Part shown: piece by piece, positions 2,285 to 26,838 of the stretch
How positions within the stretch are numbered: the stretch's first letter is position 1
Layout: each line of letters starts with the position of its first letter
IMG/VR virus record: IMGVR_UViG_3300022200_002351
Location: 1 to 27,879 of that record
Origin: a virus
Direction: 5' to 3' (one strand)
DNA: 27,879 bases
Position numbers and translations under genes: made by a program
Notes under the pieces: generated by a model
Told to the model about the DNA's origin: nothing
Databases searched by the model: none
What the model saw: the letters and a program-made list of their open reading frames with translations, nothing else

Positions 2285-3137
2285 GATTGGGTTCGTCAAA
2301 TAGAGAAAAGTTAAGTCTAATCTTATCTGCTGATCCAAAATTTCCTTGTGGATACCCAGTATAATTTGATGCTTCTACATATACATCAACTGTTGCTGTA
2401 ATACCTCCATTCCAGTCAGGTTCACTCGTAGGCGTACCATATATTTCACCTGTAAGTGAGTCTATAAATATTCCAGGCCACAAAGTTTGATCACCCCCTC
2501 CAGGTCTTCTGACCCTAAAGTTTGAGATTGGTATTGGATCTGTAAATATTCTAGGTATTCCTTGACCAGGAATAGAAGCACCAGCTTGAGAAGTTATAGG
2601 ACTCCCAGGTCTATTAAAGAACTGCTCTTGTGTTTGCTCACTTGTCAATTTTGTATAAGCTTCACTTGGCCTGATTGGGGACACTTCAGTAAATTCAACT
2701 CTAATTAGACCTCCATTATTTCTTGTGTAAATAACTCCTATACGTATGTTAGGATTAGAATAACTTATAGAAGGTGGTTCAACAACAAAGCCAAAACTTT
2801 GAAGAGGGTCATCTGGCTCCCTTAAAGCACCAAAGCCTCCACCTCCATCAGAAAACACTGTCCCATCTATAGCGTGAGCTATGTCACCACAACTTAATGG
2901 ATCAAAGTCTCTAACTATAGGCTGTCCACCAACAAAAACGGTAGGACTACCTATAACGGCTATAGGAGGGTGACTAGCAAGATCCACGCATCCATGAGGT
3001 AGAAACGGATCTCCTACCCTAACCACAGGAGATCCATTTGCGTGTACATCTTCTTTTAATGGTGTCGGAAGCGTAGGCGGGAAGCAGGTAGGGCTATGTC
3101 CAAATGTCAAAGTATTCTTACGTATTACTCGTGGCAT
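2280..3137 (-). CDS. PAAR-domain spike-tip protein fused to Ig-like (He_PIG-type) domain
   Basis: A 285-residue protein. Residues 1-95 form a PAAR domain, the sharpened metal-bound cone that caps phage and type VI spikes. Visible features are SPVVRVGDP, the SPTVFVGGQPIVRDFDP repeat, and candidate metal ligands His14, His48, Cys50, His56 and Cys83. T4 gp5.4 is the equivalent tip and is only about 97 residues. The remainder is a Gly/Pro linker and a segment at about 205-258 with PGIFIDSLTGEIYGTPT, the hallmark of putative Ig (He_PIG) domains, ending in beta-strand-like sequence. The ATG at 3137 overlaps the end of the preceding gene by 20 bases and has GGAG upstream. It presumably sits on the gp5-like spike encoded about 24 kb upstream. 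PAAR call is strong; the Ig-like call is moderate. Confidence 0.88.
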   Translation of the reverse strand: MPRVIRKNTLTFGHSPTCFPPTLPTPLKEDVHANGSPVVRVGDPFLPHGCVDLASHPPIAVIGSPTVFVGGQPIVRDFDPLSCGDIAHAIDGTVFSDGGGGFGALREPDDPLQSFGFVVEPPSISYSNPNIRIGVIYTRNNGGLIRVEFTEVSPIRPSEAYTKLTSEQTQEQFFNRPGSPITSQAGASIPGQGIPRIFTDPIPISNFRVRRPGGGDQTLWPGIFIDSLTGEIYGTPTSEPDWNGGITATVDVYVEASNYTGYPQGNFGSADKIRLNFSLFDEPNQ

Positions 3138-9141: not shown

Positions 9142-12100
9142 TATGAATCCTTACTGTCAAGCTCGAAAGTATTACTTGATCTAAATCCCCTACCAATATC
9201 TCTATATGTATCATTCGCAAAGTCCCCATACTTAACTTGAGTATAAGGTAAGATTCTTCTTACAGGAGTTGGAATATTAGACTTTCCAATGCTACAGTGT
9301 TTTGCATTGGCAAAAAGATTAGATGATGATTCGTCTAACAAAACCGCTCCATTCTGATTAGAAATAATCTCATTACTATAATAGTACCCTGAAGTTTCCC
9401 ATTGACTATTAACGGTATTATATCTTCTTATTCTAGAATCTAGACTAGAAGGGCCTATTGAGGAGCAATTAGATGATGCGTGGTACCCCTGACTATATAT
9501 TTGATCTATTTCTCCGACTCTTCCACCTAATCCTGATATTGAAAGAATCGAAGCTTCTGGATGAACTGAGAAATACAGTCTAAAAGGGCCTTTATTCTTA
9601 TGAACATCTGGTGCCCAAGGGTTACCACTACATGGTGCATAAAAGTCTATAAGAGATAAGGATTCTGTGTCTGGGGTAGTCATAGGAGCCCCACTATGGA
9701 AGGTATCTTCACTACCTACTTCTAACCATCCACCTAAAGGCCCATGGTAGTTTGCATCTTCTGGATAGTCTTCTTCTACTGAAACAAATGCTGACTCCAT
9801 TGTACTATCATTACCTATATTCCAAATAAATAATTTGTTACATAAATATACTGATCCTCCAGTAGTATCGTAATAAACATCAGATGGATTCCAGAATCCG
9901 CATGGGAAGTGAACATTTTTTAAATCAATATGACTTTGATTTAACGCTCTTACACACATTCCGCCATAAGTTAATTCAGTGTAGGTAGTGGTGTCCTCCC
10001 CTGGATCAAAGATTTGATTTTTGCCTGTAAGAAGGGCTGGAATTGTATGGGACCCTATTTTTTGAAATGAGGTCCCACTATTTTTTGCACCTATATTATA
10101 ATTATTTATAACTCCTCCACCTCCATCTATAGGGTTTGGATAAAACTGTATGAATCCACTGGAGATATAATCACCATTTGACCCTGGGTCGTATAGGGGT
10201 CCATCAGTTACTGCGGTAACTCCATACTCCCCTTTCCAATAGTTTTTGTAATATCCTAAATCCTTAATGTTTAAAGTAGAGTGCTTATCCAATACAATAC
10301 AAGACCTTGTAGAATGTAGTTCAACCATTGTATGGTTGAAAGGATCATTAAGGTTATATGAATCTACATCAAAGTTTGCATCAGTATTATCTGTAGGTGG
10401 TTTAATAGCGATTATAGAATTATCTTCTGCATATAAATCAACACCGAATTGAGCAAAAGCAGTAGGACCATTTATTTCTATTTTAGAACCTTGTCCTGCA
10501 TAAGCTCCCGCTAACCTTTCTTGTCTTGCTTGATTAGGAGGTCCAAAAACTTTAGTAGCATAATGTTTTGATCCTTGCAAAGTCATAGTAGACCCATTAG
10601 TTACAGAAATTTCTGATCCCTTTACTGCAAAGTTTGCTATAGATTGCTCATCCTCTCTTATTATGTTACAATGTATTAGTTTGGCCTCTGAATTATTTTT
10701 TAAAGATATAGCTGGTAAGATACCGTCTGAATTTCCAAACAGGTAATCAGCCCCAACTGGGCGTCCGAATGATCTTGAAAAGTTAAATCGTCCTACTTTA
10801 TCAACTATCGCAGAAGTTTGAACTGGTAGTAGTTTAGAATTAAAAAGCTCTAGATGTGATCCATTGGCAGAAAAGTCGTAGTGATAAAAGGTGTCATAAT
10901 TAGCTCTAGGATCACTTTCTTTTGTAGTTGGTAAAATACTATTCTTATTGTAAATTAAGTTAGAAATATTTAATTTAACTGCTTGTTTTTGATTTCCTAT
11001 TGCTGTTAATTTATCTAATTCTAAAGTTGAATTAAAACAATCCGCTCCAACAAGGTTACCTAAAATAAAAGTTCTACCATTTAAGGAATACTTTGAGTTT
11101 ACAGCCTTTAAACCATAACCGGTGTTTAACTCTAATGATAAAGCTGTATTATAAGCAATAGATAAATTTTGTGATTCTTTATTTTTATCTTCATACACCC
11201 CACCTTTTAGGATAGAGTTCTCTAAGTTTATTCCTATAGTATTCCTACTGAACTCTAGAATAGTATTTCTTGTTTCAGTCGGCTTTGCAAGATTAACCTC
11301 ACCTAATAATGAATCTAATTTACTTGCATACAAATTATCCATGTGGGATTGAGTAGAACTTATATTAATTAATGAGTTTATGGCATGTAGCCCTGCTGAA
11401 TCATCATCGCGCAATAGAGTATTTTCAAAACTATTATCTAAATCAATATAGTTTATTCTTTCTTCCCATGGACCTATCAATCTCTCGCTATCACCAGGAG
11501 TAAAGCCATAGTTTCTAGTAGCTACACAGGATCTTAAAATATTTATTTCAGAGTTTACAACTTTTATACCTGCTCTTCTATGCCTAGTTGAGACGATGTT
11601 TTCTAGATAAATATTTGTAGAATTTGAAATAAAAACTCCATAATCGTTATTACTAACAGTTGAACCAGACCCGTCTACGAAAAAGTTTCTTACATATATT
11701 GGACCATTACAATTGTCAATAATAATTTTTGGCAATGTGTTTCCATAGAATAATGAAATAACCTCTGTACCATTTTTAATGTTATTTTCATAATTTACTC
11801 TTTCATCAGTAACTAAATCAAAGGAACTAGCATCTTTTGTGTGAATTTCATCACTATTATTAGGATTATACTCATAAGCTTCAAAATAAACTCCATGCTC
11901 CCCATTAGGGTGATCGGATGGGTCCCTTCGATTTCCAGATCCTCCTCTATTAGGAATAACTAAAGTTCCTCTGTTATAAATTAAGTTACTTGGAGACTTA
12001 ACATAACCATTTAATACAGTATTATTTATTCTTTGATCTTCACTTGCAAGAGTTGAACTATAAACGAAAGAATCAATACTCTCGCATTTAGATTGTTTAA

Positions 12101-12701
12101 AAATTCTAAAAGGTGCTTGATCAAGTGGCGCATATTTAGCGTCAAGCAACTCTTTTGCATAGTCTACTGAAGATACGCCAGAAGCAAAATTGTATTCATT
12201 TAAACCATCGGTATTGTCTTCAGTATTTGTCCTTTCACTAATGAATAGTACTGTAGCAAAAGTAGAGGACGCTCCTGCTTCAGTATGGGCGAAGTTTTTA
12301 TTAACAATTTCTAATGATCCACTTGGACCAAATGTAAAGTTTCTTAGCTCTAAGGAATCCTGGAGGCCGAAATTAGCAATTTCTACGACAACAGGAAAGT
12401 TAACATACTTAGGTATTGCCTCAATGCAAGTTTTAATATCCCTGAATATATTTTTAGAACATCCCATTAACTCATCTGGGACATCGGCAGATACGACTAA
12501 AGCTGCACCAGGGACGGATGAGGTTGGGTAACCGAGCTTCTCCCATAGTAAATAAGTTCTCTCATCCAAATCGTATATTGGTAAATTGTCTTGCTCCCAG
12601 TTATAAAAAGAACTAGTATCAAACTTTGTTACCTTATCTGTCCAACAATTGAAAAGCTTGGTAACTCCTGTAACAGTATAAAAGTCGTCGGGAAAATACA
12701 T
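9141..12701 (-). CDS. Beta-helix virion protein (pectate-lyase-like fold), possible tailspike
   Basis: A 1186-residue protein. Residues 31-56 carry FYNWEQDNLPIYDLDERT, matching the motif in the next gene. Residues about 60-120 recall the catalytic-leader region of tailspikes (SADVPDELMGCSKNIFRDIKTCIEAIP). Residues about 320-800 show repeated rungs with Asn-Ser turns and alternating hydrophobics (NSTNIYLENIVS, NSEINILRSCVATRN, NSLINISSTQSHMDN, NSTLELDKLTAIGN), typical of right-handed parallel beta-helices of the pectate lyase superfamily. The last 300 residues are Gly/Ser/Tyr-rich. No catalytic residues can be assigned without a structure. It follows the 206-residue gene with a TAAAATG junction; GGAG is about 14 nt upstream, so translation is likely coupled. 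It could be a depolymerising tailspike or a purely structural fibre. Confidence 0.82.
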   Translation of the reverse strand: MYFPDDFYTVTGVTKLFNCWTDKVTKFDTSSFYNWEQDNLPIYDLDERTYLLWEKLGYPTSSVPGAALVVSADVPDELMGCSKNIFRDIKTCIEAIPKYVNFPVVVEIANFGLQDSLELRNFTFGPSGSLEIVNKNFAHTEAGASSTFATVLFISERTNTEDNTDGLNEYNFASGVSSVDYAKELLDAKYAPLDQAPFRIFKQSKCESIDSFVYSSTLASEDQRINNTVLNGYVKSPSNLIYNRGTLVIPNRGGSGNRRDPSDHPNGEHGVYFEAYEYNPNNSDEIHTKDASSFDLVTDERVNYENNIKNGTEVISLFYGNTLPKIIIDNCNGPIYVRNFFVDGSGSTVSNNDYGVFISNSTNIYLENIVSTRHRRAGIKVVNSEINILRSCVATRNYGFTPGDSERLIGPWEERINYIDLDNSFENTLLRDDDSAGLHAINSLINISSTQSHMDNLYASKLDSLLGEVNLAKPTETRNTILEFSRNTIGINLENSILKGGVYEDKNKESQNLSIAYNTALSLELNTGYGLKAVNSKYSLNGRTFILGNLVGADCFNSTLELDKLTAIGNQKQAVKLNISNLIYNKNSILPTTKESDPRANYDTFYHYDFSANGSHLELFNSKLLPVQTSAIVDKVGRFNFSRSFGRPVGADYLFGNSDGILPAISLKNNSEAKLIHCNIIREDEQSIANFAVKGSEISVTNGSTMTLQGSKHYATKVFGPPNQARQERLAGAYAGQGSKIEINGPTAFAQFGVDLYAEDNSIIAIKPPTDNTDANFDVDSYNLNDPFNHTMVELHSTRSCIVLDKHSTLNIKDLGYYKNYWKGEYGVTAVTDGPLYDPGSNGDYISSGFIQFYPNPIDGGGGVINNYNIGAKNSGTSFQKIGSHTIPALLTGKNQIFDPGEDTTTYTELTYGGMCVRALNQSHIDLKNVHFPCGFWNPSDVYYDTTGGSVYLCNKLFIWNIGNDSTMESAFVSVEEDYPEDANYHGPLGGWLEVGSEDTFHSGAPMTTPDTESLSLIDFYAPCSGNPWAPDVHKNKGPFRLYFSVHPEASILSISGLGGRVGEIDQIYSQGYHASSNCSSIGPSSLDSRIRRYNTVNSQWETSGYYYSNEIISNQNGAVLLDESSSNLFANAKHCSIGKSNIPTPVRRILPYTQVKYGDFANDTYRDIGRGFRSSNTFELDSKDS

Positions 12702-12702
12702 T

Positions 12703-13323
12703 TTAGAAAGTAATACTCCATCTAAAAACTAAAGCAAAGTCATCAGTTTTTCTGATACCTGAGAACTGTCTGTAGGCTACAAGTATAGGGGCCGGTGGAT
12801 CATTCTTCTTTATATTCTTCATAAAGAGCCCGATCTCATTAAGTAGGGAATCTTCCCCATCTCTCTGAAGGTCGTTGGCAACAGTCTCATCTAAAACTAT
12901 TGTAAATCTAACAGTCCTAGAGTCTAATCTAGTTATTTGATTATATGGTATAATTCCATATAAATTATCCTCTGCTGCAACGGAAGCTGTAGAACCCTTT
13001 ATTATATGCCCGGTTACAACATATAGATTACTATACTCCTCTATGTATTCATCTAAAGCAGTTAAAGGACCAACTAGTTCATACCTATCAGCAATCTCGT
13101 CATTTGGGTCATCACCACTAACGCCTACTTGAAATCTATCTATTTGAAAGTCAGTTATCTTATCGGACCCTACGAGTGAAAATAAGTGAGATAATCCAAT
13201 ACCCATACCAGAGGTAATGATATTGTGATCATCGAATACAACTTCTTCACTGCCATCTTGATAGCGTTTTGACACTGTTAAGTGCCCAGCTATATTTAAT
13301 TCGTTTTCAATATTTAAGTTCAT
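12703..13323 (-). CDS. Tail/baseplate beta-sandwich protein, unknown specific role
   Basis: A 206-residue, beta-rich protein. The layout (N-terminal strands around HLTVSKRYQDGS, then NIITSGMG, then RFQVGVSG, and a C-terminal NEIGLFMKNIK ... VAYRQFSGIRKTDDFALVFRWSITF-type end) follows the common pattern of small phage tail proteins in which an EIGLF strand and a final W-x-I-T-F strand close a beta sandwich. That pattern is recognised from many phage genomes, but I cannot tie it to a numbered T4 protein. No ribosome site is evident; the ATG follows the previous stop by one base (TAAAATG). Likely a baseplate or fibre-connector component. Confidence 0.78.
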   Translation of the reverse strand: MNLNIENELNIAGHLTVSKRYQDGSEEVVFDDHNIITSGMGIGLSHLFSLVGSDKITDFQIDRFQVGVSGDDPNDEIADRYELVGPLTALDEYIEEYSNLYVVTGHIIKGSTASVAAEDNLYGIIPYNQITRLDSRTVRFTIVLDETVANDLQRDGEDSLLNEIGLFMKNIKKNDPPAPILVAYRQFSGIRKTDDFALVFRWSITF

Positions 13324-13324
13324 T

Positions 13325-15223
13325 TTAACTGAATTTTAATTTAATATCAAATCTAAACCCTAATGGGACTCCCACATATTCACTAGCGTTCATAAATAAA
13401 TGCATAGCAGCTTCTTGGGTAGCACCAGAAGATTTATTGTTTACATAGAGAAGATCTCTAGAAGATATATATTTACTAAAGAGTTTATATTTTCTAGGAT
13501 TATTGTTTATAGAGAAATTATAAGGTGGATTTTCTCCATTTTTAAGCATTTCTTTTATATCTAGAGTCCATAATCCAATAGAATATAAACCACCAAATAA
13601 ATACATAGCTCCAGCGTCCCCCGATGGAACTAAGAAAGATACGTGCATACAGGTATTACTAGTATCCGTCTCTATTCTTCTAAAAGCTTTACATTCAGAT
13701 AATTCATCATATAAGTTATCCAAAGTTCCAGTTAAAGCTTCACCATCTCTAAATGTTAGGAATCCATTCTCATCTACCGTGCCATAAGTATTAAATCCAG
13801 GGCTGAGAGTCCCGGACATAATTTGATTCTCTCCAAAGTTATTCCCAGGATCTTTAGCATAAATAACAAAGCTAGCATCTAAAGCAGATGGTATGAAAGT
13901 TCCTCCATCAGTCCATAAGGATGATACATCATCGACACCTGGAATAGTTTTAATGTTTTGAGCATAATTCAAATAATGACCAAGATCGTAGTTAATCTTT
14001 AAAAAATCAAGTAATTCAGTAAAGTCTACTGATTCACTACTACTTACGATATAAGGAGTGCAATTTACTTCTTCTAACCTAGTATCAGTTGGTTTAGGAT
14101 CAGAGGGTAATAGTTTATAATATAAATCCAAGGCAGAAGCTGTGCCATAAGAATCATATCCAGATAATGCATTATCCTCACCCTCCTTTAAGACAATGAA
14201 GGTTGGCCAATTTAGTCCGACCCCTGTGTTAGCCGGGTTATCATAGACAGAAAACTTTAAATCAGCCTCGTTACCTACTCCAGGGAACCCCTGCTCATTA
14301 ATGGTTATCCTTATTCCACCTTGAGGATCAGCGGAAAGACCAAAACTTAACTTTTTGGAATCTATATCCCCCGCTCCAATCGGAATTAAAAAGAATGAAA
14401 TTTTGTCAGTGGCACCTGGAATATATGTTGAAGTATATTGGAATTCTTCGCCATCAGCGTAAGTGCCGGTTATAATAATCTCATCCCCTCCATAATAAGA
14501 GTTTCCTGGGTCTTTTGTATCTTTTACTATACTTAATCTATTTAATTCAGTATCCTGGTTAGGGCTTGTGTTAGTTCCGGTAACAAGGTATTCTAAGTTA
14601 GATCCATTAAATATCAAATTTATAACTGCTTTATCAGCATTATCATCTAGCTCCAAAGTCACGTCTGAGCCAATACTACTAGTGTAGATATTAGTAATAT
14701 CATTATTTGTTCGACTTCTTATCTTATTAGAAGCAAGACCATTAAAAATTGATGTTACTTCATGCCGACCAAAATTTTCAAGAATACTTACACCAAAATC
14801 GCCGAGGTAGACGCTGTCAGTTACTGTTCCACCATTATCAGTGGCTGTAACGAATATACTAGTTGTCGCAAAGTCTGTTAGATTTAGTTCTTTGTTAGCT
14901 AATGCAGCAAAAGAAAAGCTAGCAGGCCCATAAGCTGATAATGAATCATCAGAACCTAATAATTCACGTATGTTTACATTATTGCTATACGACACTACAC
15001 CTAAATAATTCTTATAGGATGAATCTATTGGAGCTAAATTATCATATCTAAAAAGACTTTTATGTGCATGGTTTCTAAATCCATCCCCGTCCTTACCGAA
15101 AGAGACAGCCATTATAGTATAGTTAGAAGTGTCTAATATAGATGACGCACTTTCTAAACCACTAAGGTAGGGTGGTATAGTCATTATATCAGCAATATGT
15201 TCTCTGGCTAAATCTAAAATCAT
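13325..15223 (-). CDS. Virion structural protein, possible baseplate wedge component
   Basis: A 632-residue protein encoded between the gpI/gp7-like gene and the 206-residue gene. It is acidic and beta-rich with an N-terminal segment SNYTIMAVSFGKDGDGFRN and no signal peptide. The C-terminal 120 residues contain SIGLWTLDIKEML followed by RKYKLFSKYISS and end in LGFRFDIKLKF, an arrangement resembling the EIGLF ... RWSITF end of the neighbouring 206-residue protein. In T4, gp7 is followed by gp8, so position suggests a gp8 counterpart, but length (T4 gp8 is about 334) and sequence do not support a firm call. The start is ATG at 15223 one base after the previous stop (TAAAATG). Confidence 0.75.
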   Translation of the reverse strand: MILDLAREHIADIMTIPPYLSGLESASSILDTSNYTIMAVSFGKDGDGFRNHAHKSLFRYDNLAPIDSSYKNYLGVVSYSNNVNIRELLGSDDSLSAYGPASFSFAALANKELNLTDFATTSIFVTATDNGGTVTDSVYLGDFGVSILENFGRHEVTSIFNGLASNKIRSRTNNDITNIYTSSIGSDVTLELDDNADKAVINLIFNGSNLEYLVTGTNTSPNQDTELNRLSIVKDTKDPGNSYYGGDEIIITGTYADGEEFQYTSTYIPGATDKISFFLIPIGAGDIDSKKLSFGLSADPQGGIRITINEQGFPGVGNEADLKFSVYDNPANTGVGLNWPTFIVLKEGEDNALSGYDSYGTASALDLYYKLLPSDPKPTDTRLEEVNCTPYIVSSSESVDFTELLDFLKINYDLGHYLNYAQNIKTIPGVDDVSSLWTDGGTFIPSALDASFVIYAKDPGNNFGENQIMSGTLSPGFNTYGTVDENGFLTFRDGEALTGTLDNLYDELSECKAFRRIETDTSNTCMHVSFLVPSGDAGAMYLFGGLYSIGLWTLDIKEMLKNGENPPYNFSINNNPRKYKLFSKYISSRDLLYVNNKSSGATQEAAMHLFMNASEYVGVPLGFRFDIKLKFS

Positions 15224-15224
15224 T

Positions 15225-18200
15225 TTACTCTATTATTATAGTCTCTGTTATACCTATGGTTCCTATATAATCCGTAGTGTCAGCGGTGGTTGTAACTCTA
15301 GGATCTATTCTATAGTTATGCCTACTTCCTCCCTTTGATTCATGTATATCTTCCATCTTTGAATAATCTCTGCTTGCAATAGGTTGTTTATTGTATTTTC
15401 CAATAATCTGATTAAACCAACCTAATATATTCATTAAATCAATTTTAGATATATCATGTCTAAACTCAGTGCAGTAATTATAAGTCATTGGGTGTGACTT
15501 ATCTATCCCTCCGAGTAGAGGTTTACACCATTTATTTAAAGTTATATCATAAAGGTCCATGGAATGATATAAAGCGACTCTATATAAATATTCGTCAACA
15601 GGAACTTTAAAAACCTCTATAACATACTTTTGATCTTTTCTATGTAGATAACCAAAAGTATTGAAATAGTCATAATCCATATCTACTTCAACATTTCTAG
15701 TGTTAAATTTAACTGAAAGCTTTTTATAATCTGATTCACCAAAAATAGTAATTAATTCATAGCGCCTTGGAAGTTGAGCTTCAGGATCTATAATATCTAA
15801 ACACTGGAACCCTTGTCTCTCTGGGTCATCGTAGCTGAACTCTTCTGGGTTGAAAGTAAACAAGTGGGAGTACTTTCTTATCACATCGTTTGAGTTTAGT
15901 ACTCCTCTCTCTAAAGCTTTTCCGCTATCATGTCTTACCCATTTTTTATCTTTAGTATAAGACCAGATCTTACCCCCTTCTTCCTTAGTGTGAATCCATA
16001 CTCCAATAGTACCCCCTCCATACTCTATACCACCAGGGTGGGTTACTAGAGCATTGAAAGAGAAGTTGAAATCGTGATCAGGTAGAAGGAAATTCTTTTC
16101 TACGTCATAACCATCTTCAGTAAAGTTTTCAAACTTATCTACATCAAAGCTTATTCTTGGGAATCCATCTTGTGCTATTTGCCAAATAATAGTATTTGAG
16201 TTTAGGAAATCGTTAGCTCTTCCTGCGCCAGGAGCGTCAGACTTTTCTGTTCTAAATACAATAAAACTATTTAATGGGTTTGATCCAGAAGTATGAATCA
16301 ACTCTACGGAATCAAGAATACCAGAGCATCTATACTCAGGATTATTAACTACTATTTCATCACTGGCAGATGTAAAAATATGAGTACCTAGTGACTTTGA
16401 CGCCGCTGTATCAGCAAAAGGTTCCTCTCCGGGATGAAAAGAATGAACCCCAGAGTACAAATATGTATTAGAAATTAAATTACCAGCAGCCTTCTGGCCT
16501 GGGCCATCGGATGTGAAATCAGAGTTTCTTAATATTGATCCAAAAGCATGATTAAATATAGTTGGTCCTCCATCTAGTTCCAACGTTCTTGGATTTAACC
16601 TATGCCCACTAAAGTCTGATGTATAGACATCATACATCCAATGGAACTCTCTGCCTAAAGCAACTCTGTAAAAGTCTTCAGGTGCCTCTGGGAAAGCGCC
16701 AGACGATTCGGTTAACTCATTAGCATAACTTTGTGCTATATTCTTCCAATACAAATCTTTTACTAACGAATCATAGTTAGAAGATAAATAAATATGACCT
16801 TTAGCTAATTTGCGGTCCTCTTCAATTTTATGGAAGATAGCACCTATTGTATGTAACTGACCTCTGTCACAAGAGTAATCGCTCTCATAAGCCTCTAAAG
16901 ATGTTGGTGATTTCCAACCCCTAAAAGGGAAGGTGTTGCTAACAGCTATCTCATAATAAACATTTGCAGAATCTAAGGTTTCGCAAGCTCTGTATATTGG
17001 AGGAATATCCCTGTAGTCTGGGATAGTGACGAAAGTTAAAGATGATGGAATCAACCCTAATGCAGCACCGCTTAAGATATTATTTCCTAAGGGGGCTGTC
17101 ATACTACTCAAACTCCAATTAGATGGTGAATTAAACCCGTCTCTTGTGTAAAAGCCTTCTTTTGGAAAAAAGTTTGAATAGTCTCTTCTTCTGTAAGTTC
17201 TTCTAGGAACATTAAATAAAGTTGTATTATTTGGTGAACTAACTCTTAGATCCTTCCAGAAGGAATCAACATCTGTTCTCCCAAATACATTCCCGTCCTC
17301 GTTCAAACCCCTCTTATACCCATTCATTGAGTATACACCGGTTACACTTAAGTTAGTAAAAGAAGAAGACCCATCTAGGGATGACTCTGGATTGTCGTTC
17401 TTTTTAAAATCTACAAAAGGTATAATATCTGGTGTGTATTCCTGGTAATCTGAATCAGAGGCGTTTAGCCTTATTCTTGGTATTGAGTGTGCAGGTGAGA
17501 ACTCCTTTACAGCCTGAGAAGCCAACTGCACGGCCCTACCTGAATTAACTTCAATAGTGTTCTTTAGGAAATCAAACTCATCGGCTTCAAAAACTAAATC
17601 AAAGTGTGAAGACTTGCCGTTCCATAAGGAGAGGTAGTTTACTTTTTTGTTTGAAATATCTTTAATAATGTTTTCCCAATTTGGAGGGTAAGTAACATCA
17701 TCAGTAAAGAATAACCATCCGTTATTTACACCGGAATCTTCTATATTTTCTATTGTGTGTGATTTTATATAATCTCTTACTTGTATAGCAAAGTTTTGAG
17801 GAACACCAAAACAAACTAATTTGTCGGCAATCCTATCAATCATATCTTTTGTTAAAGATACATTGACGTAGTAGGGGTATTCCTCAAATGGTGGTATAGG
17901 ATAAACCCTTCCTCTATATTTGAACTTGAAGTCTTCATCATCAATAGGGAATGGTTCTCCTGCAAGTAGGAATGATCCACTAAACTCTTGAACTAAATCA
18001 AATATAATTCTATCTGTAGCTAGTTTTATATTCTCATCAAAATCTTCTTGATTGAATGCGTTTACACCAAACTCTCTTCTAAAAGCTAAGTCCCTAGTCC
18101 AAGTTGTGTAATCTTTAAATAATGTTGATTCTGTAGCTAAAGAATACCAAATGATATGTGGAATATATGACTCCCAAAGATCTGATATTCTTGATGAAAC

Positions 18201-19346
18201 ATCAAATACATTTTGACTGAATATAGCATCAGATGCATACTGCAAAGACGCTTTAGTTCCTGCTCTCTTATAAACTTCTACAGCATTAATTAATTGTAGC
18301 CTCCACCTTCCTGGATCTTCGCCAAAAAGAGGCCACCCTATAAGATCGGCAACGAAGGGGAGGTATTCTTCTGGGCATTGCTGAATTTGATAATAAGTCT
18401 CTATCTGATCAACACTATTTGAGTAATCAGCAAATGCAAACGAAAAAGCTTTTACTATCTTTGATACTGGGCCGATTATCTTTTTATTATCTATATAAAC
18501 AGATAAATTTAAAAATCTATCTATAGCATCTTTTAATCTAAAATCATCTTTATCAATATAAAGAGGAGAATAAAGTACATCAACAAGTGTTTTTAGCTTA
18601 TCTAGTTGTTGAGTCCCACTAGTATTCTCCGTATTTGCAATATATGGAGGAGGCAGATACTCGTCTGGGATTAGATCATTATCTCTGAAAGCGTCACATG
18701 TAGCATAGTTCTTCCAAATATACTCAGTCACACCTTTCATTGTATCATTTATCAGTATCTTCTCACCCTCGTATAATTTTTCTGTTAATAAAGTTTTTAC
18801 ATAAGAGGAAGGTTGATAGTCCAACGTATCTGGCCCAGATAGATTTAGGAAGTATATCCAACTAAGTTGATCAACCAAATAAGCATGTTGGGCACTAGTA
18901 TCAGTATTATCTTCAACAAAAATTTTAGTTGGCTTATTGAGATAAATTCCTGGTAAAAGATCGTTCTCCAGATAATCTGCAAACTCTTCTTTGGAATCGA
19001 AGTTATTAAATGTATAATTTAATGGAACTAAAATTCTCTTTTCAAACTCAGCAATGTCTAAATCTAAAATGTCATTTTGCTTTACAAAATACTGCGCCAT
19101 TCCAGAAGGTGTACCCAAGCCTGAAAACTCTCCAACACCTTCCAAAGCACTTATGTTAAAGACAGTGTCAACTATATTTAATATATTTAAGTGACTATTT
19201 ATTAGTTTATCAATAGGATCTAAGTCTTGCCCAGATAAATTATAATCATCAAGTTTGTATTGATCAGGGACTATAAAGCTTAACGCTTCATCGAAATTCG
19301 ATTTATGAAACTTTCTACTTTTACCAAACTTTCCTGGGTCGACCAT
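15225..19346 (-). CDS. Baseplate wedge protein, T4 gp7 / P2 gpI-like
   Basis: A 1373-residue protein and the largest in the window. Residues about 310-380 carry the signature of the P2 gpI / tail protein I family: a CPEEYLPFVADLIGWPL segment, then RWRLQLINAVEVYKRAGTKAS, the helical hairpin found in baseplate wedge proteins next to the J/gp6 protein. T4 gp7, about 1032 residues, contains the same element within a long elongated chain. N-terminal residues 1-300 are helical and rich in Tyr/Asp. From about 650 onward the sequence becomes beta-rich, with stretches such as EYGGGTIGVWIHTKEEGG suggesting jelly-roll-like inserts. It directly follows gp6 (TAATG overlap), the order expected for J-I / gp6-gp7 modules. 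Identity as the gp7-position protein is likely; exact domain limits are uncertain. Confidence 0.72.
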   Translation of the reverse strand: MVDPGKFGKSRKFHKSNFDEALSFIVPDQYKLDDYNLSGQDLDPIDKLINSHLNILNIVDTVFNISALEGVGEFSGLGTPSGMAQYFVKQNDILDLDIAEFEKRILVPLNYTFNNFDSKEEFADYLENDLLPGIYLNKPTKIFVEDNTDTSAQHAYLVDQLSWIYFLNLSGPDTLDYQPSSYVKTLLTEKLYEGEKILINDTMKGVTEYIWKNYATCDAFRDNDLIPDEYLPPPYIANTENTSGTQQLDKLKTLVDVLYSPLYIDKDDFRLKDAIDRFLNLSVYIDNKKIIGPVSKIVKAFSFAFADYSNSVDQIETYYQIQQCPEEYLPFVADLIGWPLFGEDPGRWRLQLINAVEVYKRAGTKASLQYASDAIFSQNVFDVSSRISDLWESYIPHIIWYSLATESTLFKDYTTWTRDLAFRREFGVNAFNQEDFDENIKLATDRIIFDLVQEFSGSFLLAGEPFPIDDEDFKFKYRGRVYPIPPFEEYPYYVNVSLTKDMIDRIADKLVCFGVPQNFAIQVRDYIKSHTIENIEDSGVNNGWLFFTDDVTYPPNWENIIKDISNKKVNYLSLWNGKSSHFDLVFEADEFDFLKNTIEVNSGRAVQLASQAVKEFSPAHSIPRIRLNASDSDYQEYTPDIIPFVDFKKNDNPESSLDGSSSFTNLSVTGVYSMNGYKRGLNEDGNVFGRTDVDSFWKDLRVSSPNNTTLFNVPRRTYRRRDYSNFFPKEGFYTRDGFNSPSNWSLSSMTAPLGNNILSGAALGLIPSSLTFVTIPDYRDIPPIYRACETLDSANVYYEIAVSNTFPFRGWKSPTSLEAYESDYSCDRGQLHTIGAIFHKIEEDRKLAKGHIYLSSNYDSLVKDLYWKNIAQSYANELTESSGAFPEAPEDFYRVALGREFHWMYDVYTSDFSGHRLNPRTLELDGGPTIFNHAFGSILRNSDFTSDGPGQKAAGNLISNTYLYSGVHSFHPGEEPFADTAASKSLGTHIFTSASDEIVVNNPEYRCSGILDSVELIHTSGSNPLNSFIVFRTEKSDAPGAGRANDFLNSNTIIWQIAQDGFPRISFDVDKFENFTEDGYDVEKNFLLPDHDFNFSFNALVTHPGGIEYGGGTIGVWIHTKEEGGKIWSYTKDKKWVRHDSGKALERGVLNSNDVIRKYSHLFTFNPEEFSYDDPERQGFQCLDIIDPEAQLPRRYELITIFGESDYKKLSVKFNTRNVEVDMDYDYFNTFGYLHRKDQKYVIEVFKVPVDEYLYRVALYHSMDLYDITLNKWCKPLLGGIDKSHPMTYNYCTEFRHDISKIDLMNILGWFNQIIGKYNKQPIASRDYSKMEDIHESKGGSRHNYRIDPRVTTTADTTDYIGTIGITETIIIE

Positions 19347-20935
19347 TAGACGTAATGAATGGTTATGTTAAAGTTGTTTAACTGAATTATTTCATTAAAA
19401 TTAACAACTATCGTTTCAGGAATATTATCTATTGATGCAAACCTGACTTCATTAATTTCAAAGATTTCTCTAGCTAAGTCGCCAGGAACAAAGTATTGTC
19501 CGAAACGCCAATTATCTACATTAAAATAGCTTAGTATGACTGCTCTTATTTTTGCTTTTATAGTTTCTTCGTTAGCTTTGTATTGTTTATCAACTCTAGC
19601 TGTTATACTCGTATCTATAGTCCTTATTAGGCCATCTACTACAACAACCTCATCTGTTATCATTTTCTTCTCATCAATTCCAGCAACTAACTGTCTTTTA
19701 AACTCAGGGGTTGCTTTCCTTAATTGAAGATCACTGGCCTTCTCTAAGACAAATAGATCAATTATATTTGCTGATGAGTAAGCTCTTCTTACCGATGCAG
19801 TTGCTTTTCCTACTGATCCATAACTAGTCATGTAAGTATTAGCAAAAGCATCATAATCGTCAAGTGTAACTAGCCTATTTAATGATCTGTAAAGCTTTGG
19901 ACCATAACGTTTAGCGTGAGAGATAGTTTCAGCATTAGCTCCACCAGTACCAGCGGAAGTATTTTCTATAGTAGCTGTTTTTGTTTCACCACCGAGACTG
20001 CAAGAAATACGAGAGTTTAACGACTCTTTTCTTATATTACCTCTAGTTCCTCCACCTACACGATAGAAAATAGTATAAGAATCAGTTATATTAGGGCTTT
20101 TTCCTACATTACTATCTGGAAAAAGTATTGTAGCAGCGTAAGAACTGTCAGTTGCAATTTGAAAAACTTTATCATCCGGACCGGAAGCAAAGAATACAGA
20201 CTCTACTTGTTTGTATCTACCGGCAGTGGTTTCATCATCCCCATTAATATAAACTAAAACACTACCTTCTACTACGGGGGATTGTGATAACTTAATTGAC
20301 TTTATGGATTCAGTATTAGAAAATGCCCCATCCTCACGAATAAAAGACCCTTCTAAAAGAACTAGATTTGTAAACTCATTACCTACTTTTTCATTTTCAT
20401 ATAGATTGATATTCCCTTCAGAGTTTTCAACATCTATATCGCCATTGGCAGCTACTTTATATAAGGTGTAAGTTAATGGTGCTCCGTCTTCTGGTGAGGT
20501 TATATTAATTACTCTAGAGGGCGCTTCTATTACTAGTTTATCCTCTTCGGGTATAGTAAATGTTTCATCTAAAGTAATTTTTGCATTCGCTGCGGATGAT
20601 ATTGGACCCTTTAATCTGATACCTATAAGGTCTAACAAGTTCTTGACTGACTTTCTAGTCCTAGCTGTTCTTAAGAAGTTCTCATATGATAGATAATCGG
20701 CTTTGTAGGATAGAACATGACCCATATAAGCTACAAGTTCTATTAGCATCATTCCGAAATCAGATTCAGAAATATAGTTATAATCTAAAGGGTATACAGC
20801 TTTGACATAATCAATCATACCCTGCCTCAAAGTTAAAAAGTCTGTCGCGGCGAAGTTTATAAACTTATTTCTAGCCTCTAGATCTACATCCAAAGTCTTT
20901 AGAAAATCTGATTCTACCGTTCCTTTAAATACCAT
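19346..20935 (-). CDS. 6: Baseplate wedge subunit gp6 (P2 J-like)
   Basis: A 529-residue protein of the gp6/baseplate J family, which dimerises to form the inner ring that holds the wedges together and changes shape on contraction. Diagnostic features are the N-terminal helical region, with SESDFGMMLIELVAYMGHVL at about 56-75 and a DYLSYENFLRTARTRKSV segment, and the C-terminal domain with VDNWRFGQYFVPGDLAREI, all conserved in T4-like gp6. T4 gp6 is 660 residues, so this is a shorter form. The ATG (20935) overlaps the stop of gp25 (TAATG). The gp25-gp6 pair followed by a gpI-like gene is the classic baseplate order. Confidence 0.9.
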   Translation of the reverse strand: MVFKGTVESDFLKTLDVDLEARNKFINFAATDFLTLRQGMIDYVKAVYPLDYNYISESDFGMMLIELVAYMGHVLSYKADYLSYENFLRTARTRKSVKNLLDLIGIRLKGPISSAANAKITLDETFTIPEEDKLVIEAPSRVINITSPEDGAPLTYTLYKVAANGDIDVENSEGNINLYENEKVGNEFTNLVLLEGSFIREDGAFSNTESIKSIKLSQSPVVEGSVLVYINGDDETTAGRYKQVESVFFASGPDDKVFQIATDSSYAATILFPDSNVGKSPNITDSYTIFYRVGGGTRGNIRKESLNSRISCSLGGETKTATIENTSAGTGGANAETISHAKRYGPKLYRSLNRLVTLDDYDAFANTYMTSYGSVGKATASVRRAYSSANIIDLFVLEKASDLQLRKATPEFKRQLVAGIDEKKMITDEVVVVDGLIRTIDTSITARVDKQYKANEETIKAKIRAVILSYFNVDNWRFGQYFVPGDLAREIFEINEVRFASIDNIPETIVVNFNEIIQLNNFNITIHYV

Positions 20936-21405
20936 TATAATGTTACTTCTAAATCAAAATTTACAGATTCTACATTTTTTAATCTACAATAAAGTTTTAT
21001 TGTTAGAGTTTGATCTCCATATGCGTTAGGAGAATCATTTGGGATTACTCTTATTTTAAGAAGTTTAACATCCCTAGCATATCTAGCCATAGACTCAATA
21101 ACTTCTATTTTTATTTTATGTAATAGGGATTCATCTATTTGCTCCATCATATAGCTCCTGAGATTAGTGCCAAAGTCAGGATGCATTACTCTTTCTCCCC
21201 TGTTGGTCATGAGCATTTGTCTTAAATTACTCTTTATAAGATCAACCCCTCTAGCCTTAGTAAAATAACTTCCGTAAGTTTTCGGGTCAATTGGGTATTG
21301 AAATCCGTAAATACTTTTTGTGGCAGACCTAATCGCTGATTTATTTGACAGCGAGGGATAATTAAAAATATTATTATAAACCGTTACTTCGGAATTTACT
21401 GCCAT
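20935..21405 (-). CDS. 25: Baseplate wedge subunit gp25 (GPW/gp25 family)
   Basis: A 156-residue member of the GPW/gp25 lysozyme-like-fold family, the sheath-initiating wedge component found in contractile tails, type VI secretion (TssE) and R-type pyocins. The family core is clear at residues 54-82: VDLIKSNLRQMLMTNRGERV followed by HPDFGTNLRSYMME, and a later IPNDSPNAYGDQTLTIKLY strand pair. T4 gp25 is 132 residues; the extra length here is an N-terminal extension of about 25 residues. The ATG at 21405 has AAAGG 9 nt upstream and lies two bases past the stop of the hydrolase gene. Confidence 0.93.
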   Translation of the reverse strand: MAVNSEVTVYNNIFNYPSLSNKSAIRSATKSIYGFQYPIDPKTYGSYFTKARGVDLIKSNLRQMLMTNRGERVMHPDFGTNLRSYMMEQIDESLLHKIKIEVIESMARYARDVKLLKIRVIPNDSPNAYGDQTLTIKLYCRLKNVESVNFDLEVTL

Positions 21406-21407
21406 AG

Positions 21408-24065
21408 CTACTTACCTTTATTAAAATATGGGAACGTTAATGGTGGAGGATTTGTATAGTTAAACCCTATATCATAACCATTTTGTTTCATATCAACAGT
21501 ACATTTATATAGTTCCGTAAATAAAGTATTATACTTTTGTTGATAAGCATCATAATCTATAAACTTAGCCATTGTCCCATGTTGAGCTTCAATATCCGCT
21601 ACTGATGTGGATGTTAAAGCTAAACCCTCCTCAGTGTATAAACAAGTACCAATAGAAGAAGTTGTAAATACAGCATTGACATATGCTGCTGAGGCTTGGG
21701 AACCTCTATTTTTTAAACATCCTGGGTACATTATTGACGATACTACGGTATCTAAACCGGTTACACTTCCATCAGCATTAGATAATACTATCAATGGATT
21801 AGGGTATATCGTCCCAGTAGCCCAAAATGGGTGTTCAACATTGGTATTAGTAAATTTTCTGTCTTCTTCAGCAAAAGGTAAATAAGCAGAAGAAAAACTC
21901 AATCTGTTATTTTCTGACACGGAACTCCATTGATAATCACTACCACTTAGCTGCCCCCAAGTAGGTATTAATGTATCTTTAAGTTCAAACAAATAACACC
22001 TATCAACTAGGAAGCCTAGAAATTCCATTTTTTCTAAAGCAACGGAACTTCCTTGTGCATCATCATTTAATATACCTGTAAGAGTAAGGCCATCAAAAGT
22101 TACACTTCCTGCATCAGCCCAACCAGACAATATATTTTGTATATCTTGAGGTGTTGTTCTGAAAAAGTCAAAATCAGTTTTAGATACGATATTAGTGTCC
22201 CTAGCAACAAAGCTTCTTCCTAAATCCCAAGTAAATGGTGGTAAGAAATTTTTTGCATTAGCGCCATAGAAAGAATCAGTAAAAAACTTAGATCCCTCCC
22301 ATTGCCTTCTAGTCACAGTAACTTCTGAATCATTAGGATCATAAAAATCATAAGATTGCAATGCTGAAGTGTAGCCGCCATCAAGACCGTTATTTGTTGA
22401 GTATCCCTTTTCATCAGGGACTTTTAATTGAGAGTCTTTTAGCCAGTTCCATTGTTTAGCTACATTGACATATGCTGCTGCATCAGGTTTCCATCTTACT
22501 TCTCCGTCTGAGAAGAATAAGCCCCATGTCTCTACGAACGGCATTGTTGAGAAAGGATTATCAACCATCGCTTGCCAAGGCATACCACCAAAGCCATCTA
22601 AAAAGAAAGATGATACGTTTATTGCATAGCTGTCGAAAGTTTCTGAGTATACTGCCTCGTTATACATATAAGGCAACTGGAATGTTTTAGATCCAGATAA
22701 AGCTAGTTCAGTATTTCTTTTTCTCCATGCGGAGGAGTATGCATAAGGGTGAAAACAAACAAAGTCTATCCTAGCTTCTCCAGCCAACTGAGTTAAAAAG
22801 CTTTCACCATAAATAGTTTTAGAGTTGGAAAAAGAAGTTGGTGAAGTCAGAGTGTGATCAAAATATGGGTCAGCATCACTATATGTAATAGCTATATTTA
22901 ATCCCTCATCGTCAATTCTCTTTCTTAGGTATGTAGTTGCACTCAAAACTAATCTATCGGCACCATCAGTAATTGGGAAAAAACTATTTTTTAACATTGC
23001 GTCATAAATAGTCTTAAAAAGAGAGTGAGAGACACCATTTATCGTTCCTTCGTCTGGGAGCCCGGTAACCCAGGCATCCATTTCCTGGTACCAACTTTTC
23101 CAATCGTTAGTATCATCTGACTCTAAATAAGATTTTACATCAAATGGTAAAAGTCTTTCTGTACCCCCTATTTCTGCTCCAAACTCATTAGCTATATCAA
23201 AGCACCACATACTTTCTTTATCTTTAACAACTTCAAAAACAGAAGAAAGATAAGGGTGTAGTACATTTTTCCAAAATTTATCATCTAACTCAGCGTCCGA
23301 CCCATAAGTATTTACTGCTCTAACTGAATGAGGCCATGTCGCCAAAGTATATGGGGGACCTGGATCAGCATAATATACAGCCCAAGCACCTTCTAAAATT
23401 GAGTTATAAGCCAAACCACCTACCCCATATTCATTAAAATTTAAGGATTTAGCTCTTTCTAAACCAAATGGAGTTCTAGTCCAACCGTGAAGCCTAAACT
23501 CTAGTCCACTAGCCATAGATTCTATTTGCAAATTTTGAATTGGTGCGCTAGTTGACATTGGAGTATATGCGACAATACTCGCCGGTAACGTATCAATAGC
23601 ATCAAAGATAGCAAACATCACTTTAATTTTATATTTACTTGCTCTGAAAAGTAAATCTTGTATGTCCTTTAAATGCTTTTCTCTTAACTCAGTTCTTTTA
23701 TAAGAATCATCATAATATTCAGAGTTAATGCTAGTATTATTTTCGTAACCCCACATATAAGGTTCTAAGAAAACTCTCACTGCATTAACTCCAATACTTC
23801 TAAGATAAGAGAACTGAGTATCTATCTCATCTCCATCGTAGTAGTACCATTGAGCAGTTTTGTTAGAACCTAAAAATACATTACTTGCATCATGCCATGG
23901 TTCACCCAATCGTACGTAAGCGAACTGTCCATCCTCTGGGATATACCCATCGTAGTATAGTTTACTGTATCTTGGGAGTCTACCACCTTTTCTAAACTCC
24001 TTTTCCATATGAGGAACGAAGTTGAATCCACGACAATTATAAAAATATGAACTTGCGTCTACCAT
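21408..24065 (-). CDS. Glycoside hydrolase, clan GH-A (GH5-like) barrel, virion-associated
   Basis: An 885-residue protein whose first about 545 residues read as a complete clan GH-A TIM barrel. Strand beta-2 gives GVNAVRVFLEPYMW (92-105). Strand beta-4 gives MWCFDIANEFG with Asn293-Glu294 as the acid/base pair, strand beta-6 FVCFHPYAYSS with His439, and strand beta-7 YMYNEAVYSE with Glu470 as the likely nucleophile. Strand beta-8 gives FVETWGLFFSDG with an aromatic Trp514. Both catalytic Glu are present, so activity is plausible; the substrate is unknown, with beta-linked glycans of the host surface the obvious candidates. The C-terminal 340 residues are of unrecognised fold and may bind carbohydrate or dock to the baseplate. 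No signal peptide. The gene is embedded between the LamG protein and gp25 with a TAAAATG junction and no ribosome site, so it is expressed with virion genes. GH5 subfamily cannot be set by eye. Confidence 0.85.
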   Translation of the reverse strand: MVDASSYFYNCRGFNFVPHMEKEFRKGGRLPRYSKLYYDGYIPEDGQFAYVRLGEPWHDASNVFLGSNKTAQWYYYDGDEIDTQFSYLRSIGVNAVRVFLEPYMWGYENNTSINSEYYDDSYKRTELREKHLKDIQDLLFRASKYKIKVMFAIFDAIDTLPASIVAYTPMSTSAPIQNLQIESMASGLEFRLHGWTRTPFGLERAKSLNFNEYGVGGLAYNSILEGAWAVYYADPGPPYTLATWPHSVRAVNTYGSDAELDDKFWKNVLHPYLSSVFEVVKDKESMWCFDIANEFGAEIGGTERLLPFDVKSYLESDDTNDWKSWYQEMDAWVTGLPDEGTINGVSHSLFKTIYDAMLKNSFFPITDGADRLVLSATTYLRKRIDDEGLNIAITYSDADPYFDHTLTSPTSFSNSKTIYGESFLTQLAGEARIDFVCFHPYAYSSAWRKRNTELALSGSKTFQLPYMYNEAVYSETFDSYAINVSSFFLDGFGGMPWQAMVDNPFSTMPFVETWGLFFSDGEVRWKPDAAAYVNVAKQWNWLKDSQLKVPDEKGYSTNNGLDGGYTSALQSYDFYDPNDSEVTVTRRQWEGSKFFTDSFYGANAKNFLPPFTWDLGRSFVARDTNIVSKTDFDFFRTTPQDIQNILSGWADAGSVTFDGLTLTGILNDDAQGSSVALEKMEFLGFLVDRCYLFELKDTLIPTWGQLSGSDYQWSSVSENNRLSFSSAYLPFAEEDRKFTNTNVEHPFWATGTIYPNPLIVLSNADGSVTGLDTVVSSIMYPGCLKNRGSQASAAYVNAVFTTSSIGTCLYTEEGLALTSTSVADIEAQHGTMAKFIDYDAYQQKYNTLFTELYKCTVDMKQNGYDIGFNYTNPPPLTFPYFNKGK

Positions 24066-24066
24066 T

Positions 24067-26838
24067 TTAGCTTGTAAAAGTTATTGATATTATTGGCTCC
24101 CACATAGTGTTTGGAACGTCAATATTCTTGAAGAAATCCTTATTTAAATTATAGTTATTAAGAACTTCGTCAGAAGTTAATGATTTAGAATAAAATTTAG
24201 TAGCTCCTAAATGGCCCTTTAGACCACTTATAACACCACCATACTTACCACCCATGAAGTTTCCACCTTCAGCCATACCATCGGTATAACCACCTCCAAG
24301 GATCCAGGGTGTAGTATAGTCATAAAGTTTAGGACAACTCTTAATAATTGAATCAGCCTCTGGGCCTACAGTTGTTGTGCTATATTCAAAACTATTAGCC
24401 TGTTTTGTTGATGGAACGTTTGGCATATCTCCTGGGTCTACGCCGAATACGAATGAAAGACTTGAAGTACACATCAAAGTACCATCTAAATAAAATTTTA
24501 CTTCATCAAGTTTTGGATTTAGAGTAAATGCAATATGACAATATTCTAAGCCTACACTCGACACAGCTTTTCCATTTACTACAGTACTAGCGTCTAGTTT
24601 CATTGAGTGCCATTCATTTTTTGATTGACAAACTTCATTATCGTAATAATTCCTAGACAGGAATCCAACTGATGATGAATCATATGACTGAGTAGGGGCA
24701 ATAAATAAACATTGTGAATCTATTTTATTATCTAGATTAGAGTTAGAGGGTTGCTCATAAGAAGTTATTCTTCTGTCTCTTGTAAACCCAAATACCATAC
24801 CTCTAACAGTATCAGATCCATCTGATCTTCTAAGATTTAGGATATCATCTTGTTTTAATGACCCTGCTGCCAGTCCTGTATTTTCATTAGCAAGGATCAA
24901 CCTATAAAGTCCTGATGCCTGAGTTGGTCCATCGTTATAACCCATATCAACGCTGTCAAAATATGGAAGATGTACCCATGTTTCAAACGTTGCCCCTAGT
25001 CTGTTATACATCCAATCATTAAACTGATTTGTATCAGGTAACTTTACATAGCTTCCAACAGTTTGTGGGTTTCTCATATCGGAAGAACTGTAATGCTTAG
25101 TTACTCCTCTAAGGTAAGGAATAGCAAGACCATCGGTGAAAACATCATCAACACTTGAAGCAACCAACTGTGAATTATTTTCATCAGTATCTGATTCTGA
25201 ATTTCTAGTTTGGAAATAAGTTGAGTCAGGTAACTCTATGTTAGTGTGAAGATAGTTATATACAGCAAATAGTGAGTCAGTCACTATCATGTCAGTAGCA
25301 TCTAGTCTCGTTGCTGAAGGGGTGTATACACTGCTTGTACCATCGAATATAAAAGATCCCTCTCCCAGGTCGGGTAATAATAAATGGGACGTTGCAGTAT
25401 GCTTTGTGGATACAGGAGGGACTACGAATGTAGGTGCTGTAAGAGGAAGCACGACTCCAGATATGTCCTCTTGATTAAGGACCATGGATCTTTGCTTCTC
25501 AATATCTAAACTTATGTTTGTCCCTTGTAAGTAAGAGAAATCATTAATCGGAACTTCTCCTACTGAGTATCTTATATCAGAACCATAAATAGATGGTAAC
25601 TTTACGGCTAGCTCAATTTGCTTCTTCCTTTTATTGATTCTAATTCTATGAAAATTATTTTCGGATATTAAAGATTGTTTTAAGTTAAATATTATTGGCT
25701 GGGAAGCATCTTTATTGATTAGCTCTCTTACCTGTCTTTCAATATCATTTATTCTTTTGTTTCTTTGACCTATAAGATCTTGAAGGAATCCATCTTTCTT
25801 ATAATAATTAGAAAGGAACACTGAGTCATCAATAATCTCTGGATCTAGGATTGTGTTAAAATAACTATCTAGATCTTTATTAGATAATCCCTTTCCTCTT
25901 CCTCCAAGGTTAGGATCATGCTCAAATGTCCACAGGTCCTCTTTTCTCAACCTAGCTTTCCTAGCATCTAACTCCATTAGAACGGGTACTAACCCACTAG
26001 TTTGAGAATCATAATAAAGACCGTCTTGAGAGAATATAAACTGTCCGTATGATGACTTTGGAGGTCCGAAGTTAAGACGAATAATCTCTTCTGGGGTTGG
26101 ATCTTCTTCATCCACTTGGTCTGGGAACTTAAATCCAAGACCTTGTAATATACTTGAAAGCTGAGGATTAAATACAGGTTCGAGACTTGGATCCTCTTCT
26201 CTACTTCTTAGCGTTTCATCAATTAAACGAAGAGTATTATTACAAGCGTCTATATGTGCTCTAGCGGCCCTAGCTGATCTGGCTAGGGAGCCATATTCAG
26301 CGTCTATATAAGAGTCATATGCGGCAGGATCCATGTTAGAAAGTTCTGACTTTAAACCTGCTGAGTCTTTCATCCTTAAGAAATCATTAAATGATTTAAC
26401 ACAGTCTGCTTGAGATTCAACCTCAGAAATTATAGAATTTACATTTTGATATAGTTGTTGACCTTGGTTGACGGCTTCGGATATCGCATCCATGAAGCCT
26501 CCCGTTTGCTTACCCAGTAATCCTTCATTTCTATCAATTTTTGACTTTGATGCATCAGAAATAACGGTCAAGCCACCATTTTCATTTACAACAGATAGTC
26601 CTCCATTAACACTTCGCAAGAAGTTACTGGCATCAGCTAAAACTCCCTCAGAATTACTTTTTGAATCAAAAATATCATCACCAATACCAGCAAGAATATC
26701 TGAAGGTATAAGGCCCATTACGTCTCCAGGTAAGCTAGCCATACAAGATGGAATACCAAAAGCGGTCTCGACCACATCCATCGGAGTACCACCCTGTCCA
26801 AATACTGCTTGTGCTGCTTTTAAATCTATATTAGGCAT
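24067..26838 (-). CDS. Large virion protein with C-terminal LamG-like jelly roll
   Basis: A 923-residue protein. The N-terminal 60 residues are Gly/Ala/Met-rich and hydrophobic (GIPSCMASLPGDVMGLIPSDILAGIG). Residues about 115-215 and 340-410 are helical or coiled coil with many charged residues (IERQVRELINK; INKRKKQIELAVKL). Residues about 596-900 resemble a LamG/concanavalin-like lectin domain: ATFETWVHLPYFD, then EYCHIAFTLNPKLDEVKFYLDGTLMC, and finally LGATKFYSKSLTSDEVLNNYN, the usual order of strands in laminin G-like modules. Such domains often bind carbohydrate. It lies between the spike gene and the glycoside hydrolase gene, each joined by TAAAATG. A hub or tail-associated role for the N-terminal half is inferred from position and helical content; the T4 counterpart is not clear. 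Confidence 0.8.
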   Translation of the reverse strand: MPNIDLKAAQAVFGQGGTPMDVVETAFGIPSCMASLPGDVMGLIPSDILAGIGDDIFDSKSNSEGVLADASNFLRSVNGGLSVVNENGGLTVISDASKSKIDRNEGLLGKQTGGFMDAISEAVNQGQQLYQNVNSIISEVESQADCVKSFNDFLRMKDSAGLKSELSNMDPAAYDSYIDAEYGSLARSARAARAHIDACNNTLRLIDETLRSREEDPSLEPVFNPQLSSILQGLGFKFPDQVDEEDPTPEEIIRLNFGPPKSSYGQFIFSQDGLYYDSQTSGLVPVLMELDARKARLRKEDLWTFEHDPNLGGRGKGLSNKDLDSYFNTILDPEIIDDSVFLSNYYKKDGFLQDLIGQRNKRINDIERQVRELINKDASQPIIFNLKQSLISENNFHRIRINKRKKQIELAVKLPSIYGSDIRYSVGEVPINDFSYLQGTNISLDIEKQRSMVLNQEDISGVVLPLTAPTFVVPPVSTKHTATSHLLLPDLGEGSFIFDGTSSVYTPSATRLDATDMIVTDSLFAVYNYLHTNIELPDSTYFQTRNSESDTDENNSQLVASSVDDVFTDGLAIPYLRGVTKHYSSSDMRNPQTVGSYVKLPDTNQFNDWMYNRLGATFETWVHLPYFDSVDMGYNDGPTQASGLYRLILANENTGLAAGSLKQDDILNLRRSDGSDTVRGMVFGFTRDRRITSYEQPSNSNLDNKIDSQCLFIAPTQSYDSSSVGFLSRNYYDNEVCQSKNEWHSMKLDASTVVNGKAVSSVGLEYCHIAFTLNPKLDEVKFYLDGTLMCTSSLSFVFGVDPGDMPNVPSTKQANSFEYSTTTVGPEADSIIKSCPKLYDYTTPWILGGGYTDGMAEGGNFMGGKYGGVISGLKGHLGATKFYSKSLTSDEVLNNYNLNKDFFKNIDVPNTMWEPIISITFTS

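Follow-up and report, generated by a model that had tools for sequence, protein, structure and literature searches.

Most of the virion depolymerases known to date are beta-helix tailspikes. In addition, GH5-type enzymes have been found in phages. The Klebsiella podophage SopranoGao (Lastavirus) encodes in its tail gene region an 826 aa 'endoglucanase' (ASV45041.1) which was suggested to be able to degrade host EPS (PMC10052179). It carries an N-terminal Gp77 fiber-tail adaptor domain, an Ig-like domain and, behind the adaptor, a GH5 domain with a clear PF00150 match (2.4e-46). A GH5 endomannanase of permafrost soil viruses, the activity of which has been demonstrated, was proposed to be an auxiliary metabolic enzyme, and viral GH5 endomannanases of this kind were proposed to degrade environmental polymers (PMC6786970). 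Furthermore, Erwinia phages, Pseudomonas phages and uncultured phages are represented by GH5-domain proteins in a viral fold library. The hydrolase presented here is virus-encoded like the permafrost enzyme, yet the latter was not described as a baseplate gene. It also resembles the SopranoGao enzyme in being encoded in a tail gene region; that enzyme yields a short, weak match to the profile of the hydrolase family. With the SopranoGao GH5 domain behind its adaptor and several GH5-domain proteins in the viral fold library, the proposal of an earlier note that our gene might specify a new type of virion depolymerase goes too far. What is new is a divergent GH-A lineage invisible to the sequence libraries, located in the slot between a LamG-type gene and gp25 and equipped with an orphan C-terminal region. 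Also new is a comparison with relatives that shows a precise insertion and alternative cargo.

The window, i.e. the whole stretch of DNA that was analysed, is a virus record of 27,879 bases. Its structural genes are all located on the minus strand and form an almost gapless run. The genes surrounding the hydrolase are:

21408..24065, minus strand: predicted clan GH-A glycoside hydrolase gene, 885 aa (ORF, profile match and predicted fold)
24067..26838, minus strand: conserved baseplate-operon gene directly upstream, weak LamG lectin-like match (Pfam Laminin_G_3 0.0013, under the curated cut-off)
20935..21405, minus strand: gp25 baseplate wedge protein, directly downstream (Pfam GPW_gp25 8.2e-12; PHROG 43)
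19346..20935, minus strand: gp6-like baseplate wedge protein (PHROG 219 2.2e-34)
15225..19346, minus strand: tail protein I-like (weak Tail_P2_I match; synteny; in relatives, cargo sits within this gene or divides it)

The hydrolase ORF starts with ATG and is intact. A gap of 1 nt separates it from the upstream LamG-type gene and one of 2 nt from gp25, in agreement with the earlier note, which had placed it immediately ahead of gp25 among the baseplate genes without giving a strand. The operon of the window comprises, in this order, VgrG/gp5-like, LamG protein, hydrolase, gp25, gp6, tail-protein-I-like and further tail proteins, and the same run also holds a weak beta-helix protein (9141-12701), a PAAR protein and a T4-type prohead protease. 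The term 'T4-like' that had been used for this phage is only loosely right: gp6, gp25 and the prohead protease fit it, but identity to the annotated gp6 relatives listed does not go beyond 21-29%. The LamG-type protein is 923 aa long with the LamG-like part at its C-terminus; it shares 37-45% identity among the relatives and has no family name. At 3118-6696, adjoining the PAAR protein, a 1192 aa protein with a Gly/Pro-rich collagen-like stretch is encoded for which no Pfam match was found.

The hydrolase protein has no match in Pfam, NCBIfam, PHROGs or PDB sequences, and Pfam PF00150 (GH5) fails to match it even at E 10; PDB phmmer matches with ribosomal L7, at E-values of 0.3 or higher, were discarded as noise. 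The sole tblastn lead was weak and connected residues 68-161 with a 'glycoside hydrolase' encoded on a Haladaptatus plasmid (E 2). When an alignment of this Haladaptatus protein and five relatives, several of them with PF00150 matches, was compared with the window protein by hhalign, a probability of 94% and an E-value of 1.6e-7 (single comparison) were obtained. A genome scan for the GH5-like family yielded 80 loci in archaea and many bacterial phyla. An HMM of 86 GH5-like members scored 27.4 bits with the window protein (E 6.5e-11, single comparison); 2,000 shuffled copies reached at most 5.1 bits, and unrelated phage ORFs in the fetched loci at most 0.5 bits. The match is composed of three colinear stretches (68-158, 246-298 and 431-509), the second of which is not significant alone. 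It aligns Glu294 with the glutamate of the family NEPG motif and Glu470 with that of the family 'ctEw' motif.

For a comparison of single residues, the window protein was aligned with 47 non-redundant family members that share 18-24% identity with it. Arg97, Asn293, Glu294, His439, Glu470 and Trp497 are invariant in this alignment, and Tyr441 is nearly so. The two catalytic glutamates named in the earlier note are among them, and their numbering was correct: FDIANEFG starts at residue 289 and YMYNEAVY at residue 466, which yields Glu294 and Glu470, respectively. GH5 enzymes have eight conserved residues: Arg, His on strand 3, Asn, Glu, His, Tyr, Glu and Trp. The window protein possesses seven of them. 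The strand-3 His is missing; the protein has Phe154-Asp155 at this place, as has nearly the whole related group. Therefore, it was placed in clan GH-A, and family membership was left open. Domains and key codons are as follows:

22431..24032, minus strand: predicted catalytic TIM barrel, about residues 12-545 (AF2 model with family alignment; structural matches span 53-549)
23775..23777, minus strand: Arg97 codon, strand 2 (Arg in 47/47 family members)
23184..23186, minus strand: Glu294 codon, predicted acid/base, end of strand 4 (Asn293-Glu294; Glu in 47/47; strand 286-292)
22749..22751, minus strand: His439 codon, end of strand 6 (HPY motif; His in 47/47; strand 433-438)
22656..22658, minus strand: Glu470 codon, predicted nucleophile, strand 7 (Glu in 47/47; strand 466-471)
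22575..22577, minus strand: Trp497 codon, strand 8 (Trp in 47/47 family members)
21411..22433, minus strand: C-terminal region, residues 545-885, candidate docking or glycan-binding part (no known relative)

Single-sequence AF2 of the full protein failed (pLDDT 31). With a 48-row family alignment, the first 560 residues were modelled at pTM 0.67 and a mean pLDDT of 61. The model contains strands at 95-99, 148-154, 286-292, 365-368, 433-438, 466-471 and 493-496/498-500 that alternate with helices, and stretches of low confidence at 1-20, 28-62, 163-249 and 370-422. Barrel strands 2-8 can be seen. The assignment of strand 1 is uncertain: a weak match exists between RGFNFVP (12-18) and strand 1 of the family, and residues 28-62 are of low confidence. 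In the model, Glu294 lies two residues past strand 4, since Asn293-Glu294 follows strand 286-292, and Glu470 is located inside strand 7. Thus, both glutamates take the predicted positions on strands 4 and 7 that the earlier note had expected of them. Foldseek and VIA-align searches revealed GH5 and GH164 beta-mannosidases, GH5_18 enzymes and GH5 mannanases as top matches. The top matches reached an E-value of 7e-7 and a Z-score of 22.9 (293 residues, rmsd 3.4), so that the clan GH-A barrel claimed earlier is borne out by the predicted fold. The attribute 'endo-acting' is unsupported, because the nearest folds include exo-beta-mannosidases besides endo-mannanases. As the family alignment went into the model, the latter is no fully independent evidence of homology; it is used for topology, and the homology claim rests on the HMM score.

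Taken together, by homology, catalytic residues and predicted fold, the gene product is classified as a clan GH-A glycosidase. It belongs to no named subfamily. By sequence, its nearest relatives form an unclassified GH5-like group from bacteria and archaea, annotated as 'cellulase family glycosylhydrolase' and represented by WP_227779056.1 (Haladaptatus), WP_044517642.1 (Hymenobacter) and WP_172623950.1 (Octadecabacter). With this group it shares the colinear strands 2-3, 4 and 6-8, the Arg, Asn-Glu, His-x-Tyr, Glu and Trp positions and a strand 3 that ends with Phe-Asp instead of the GH5 His. Identity is about 20%, and the phage barrel is much longer, with long stretches of low confidence at 1-62, 163-249 and 370-422. 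The phage protein also possesses a C-terminal region of 340 aa; the cellular enzymes mostly stand alone and have a length of 310-500 aa. The best structural matches (Z about 21-22.9), i.e. GH5 mannosidases and mannanases (7bob Op5Man5, GH5_18, GH5_7) and the GH164 beta-mannosidase 6t5o, are 10-16% identical to the hydrolase, which lacks the strand-3 His of GH5. For residues 545-885, neither a Pfam match nor a paralogue in the window or the relatives' loci was found, and in viral contigs there is no relative apart from the identical copies. The docking role that the earlier note had considered for this region is likewise unsupported.

Such copies exist in two more IMG/VR contigs, L002 and L003: The hydrolase gene is identical there (0 nucleotide differences) and hence intact in all three contigs. 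L002 differs from the window at 41 nucleotides, all of them outside the hydrolase gene. Relatives whose gp6 shows 50-64% identity to that of the window have the gene order gp5 - LamG protein - gp25 - gp6 - tail protein I. The junction is covered by 20 relatives' contigs, some of them near-duplicates; in these, gp25 comes next after the LamG gene at a distance of -1 to 10 nt. They lack the hydrolase, which occupies this junction in the window, L002 and L003. In the alignment, the LamG protein of these three has about 12 extra C-terminal residues compared to the relatives. On the short contig L013 (3-1169), a 389 aa open frame without LamG or Pfam match lies immediately ahead of gp25 in opposite orientation; a rearrangement or an assembly joint may account for this. 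According to these sequence comparisons, the hydrolase gene is a lineage-specific, precise insertion between the LamG gene and gp25. The gene matches its neighbours in GC content, GC3 (0.251) and codon usage. Therefore, the insertion does not look recent, and a recent transfer was dropped from consideration.

Searches for further copies were empty. Neither the window protein nor the family profile found one in the relatives' records, whose contigs are fragmentary. Family-profile scans of viral contigs yielded no relative of the hydrolase, and tblastn of the protein against phages no match. At E 0.001, nothing was detected in 395 genomes of the Leeuwenhoekiella phylum or in 294 from that of a Planctomycetota MAG, empty results of little weight. 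Among 60 stretches recovered from viral contigs in a scan for the DIANEFG motif, the gene was present only in L002 and in L078, the contig of L003; the rest were unrelated. A match in Acinetobacter phage IME284 was dropped as a tailspike relative, and weak C-terminal matches in an Armatimonadetes genome proved to be unrelated proteins.

The operons of the relatives contain other carbohydrate-active cargo. In L005 and L008 (both 11592-16688), a SASA carbohydrate-esterase domain is inserted into tail protein I at residues 803-983. This insertion point matches the site (about 811-823) at which the tail protein I gene is divided in other relatives. Between the two halves, L016 (IMGVR_UViG_3300017766_000684) carries at 14054-17680 a gene for a 1208 aa galactose-oxidase/GlxA-like copper radical oxidase in which the candidate copper-site Cys, both Tyr and both His are visible (NLFCGG, LRWYPT, RDYHSA, GSVTHH). 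Very large ORFs of 2071 and 1496 aa without Pfam match are found at the same tail protein I site in L015 (14021-20236) and L017 (4760-9250).

The reading we consider probable combines these observations: a retaining clan GH-A glycosidase, inserted in the baseplate operon of a contractile tail, that would act as a virion-borne depolymerase of envelope glycans. The retaining mechanism is suggested by clan membership. Glu294 would be the proton donor and Glu470 the nucleophile, with Arg97, Asn293, His439, Tyr441 and Trp497 predicted to shape the -1 subsite. After its insertion between the LamG gene and gp25, the gene would have stayed long enough to share the codon usage of the phage. The enzyme would most likely be assembled into or onto the baseplate and may cleave a polysaccharide of the host envelope so that the tail reaches the cell surface. 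The substrate might be a beta-linked glycan, perhaps a mannose-containing one; it cannot be transferred from known enzymes, because the relatives are only about 20% and the structural neighbours 10-16% identical.

An intracellular or lysis-time auxiliary metabolic enzyme, encoded in the late operon and acting outside the virion, appears unlikely but deserves to be weighed seriously. It has a published counterpart in the viral GH5 auxiliary enzyme with confirmed endomannanase activity (PMC6786970), and no docking domain was recognised in our protein. However, the gene lies only 1-2 nt from structural genes on either side, its sequence has no obvious signal peptide for export, the cargo of the relatives is partly fused to a tail protein, and a free enzyme does not explain the extra 340 aa region. 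The first three of these points are also why a virion-borne, glycan-degrading part is preferred. Far less probable is a catalytically dead barrel that serves as a glycan-binding tail adhesin: long extra barrel stretches, the orphan C-terminal region and the weak lectin-like match of the neighbouring gene would suit it, but the family residues are kept at the catalytic positions and the gene is intact in three contigs. A chance resemblance to glycoside hydrolases, to which the lack of library matches and the single tblastn match at E 2 might be ascribed, is hardly conceivable in view of a profile score of 27.4 bits against 5.1 bits for the best shuffle, the coinciding invariant residues and the fold matches.

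Beyond the virion-borne glycosidase itself, the baseplate operon could be a cassette system in which GH-A hydrolase, SASA esterase and copper radical oxidase are swapped among related phages, matching the glycans of the host envelope. We propose this tentatively and consider it somewhat less probable than not. If it is true, the interchangeable modules include an oxidative enzyme; to our knowledge, no galactose-oxidase-like oxidative enzyme is known from any virion. A GH-A barrel in a baseplate operon that is invisible to the libraries means that standard annotation can miss such enzymes. Together with the esterase and the oxidase of the relatives, the hydrolase points to swappable glycan-active parts of the phage baseplate.
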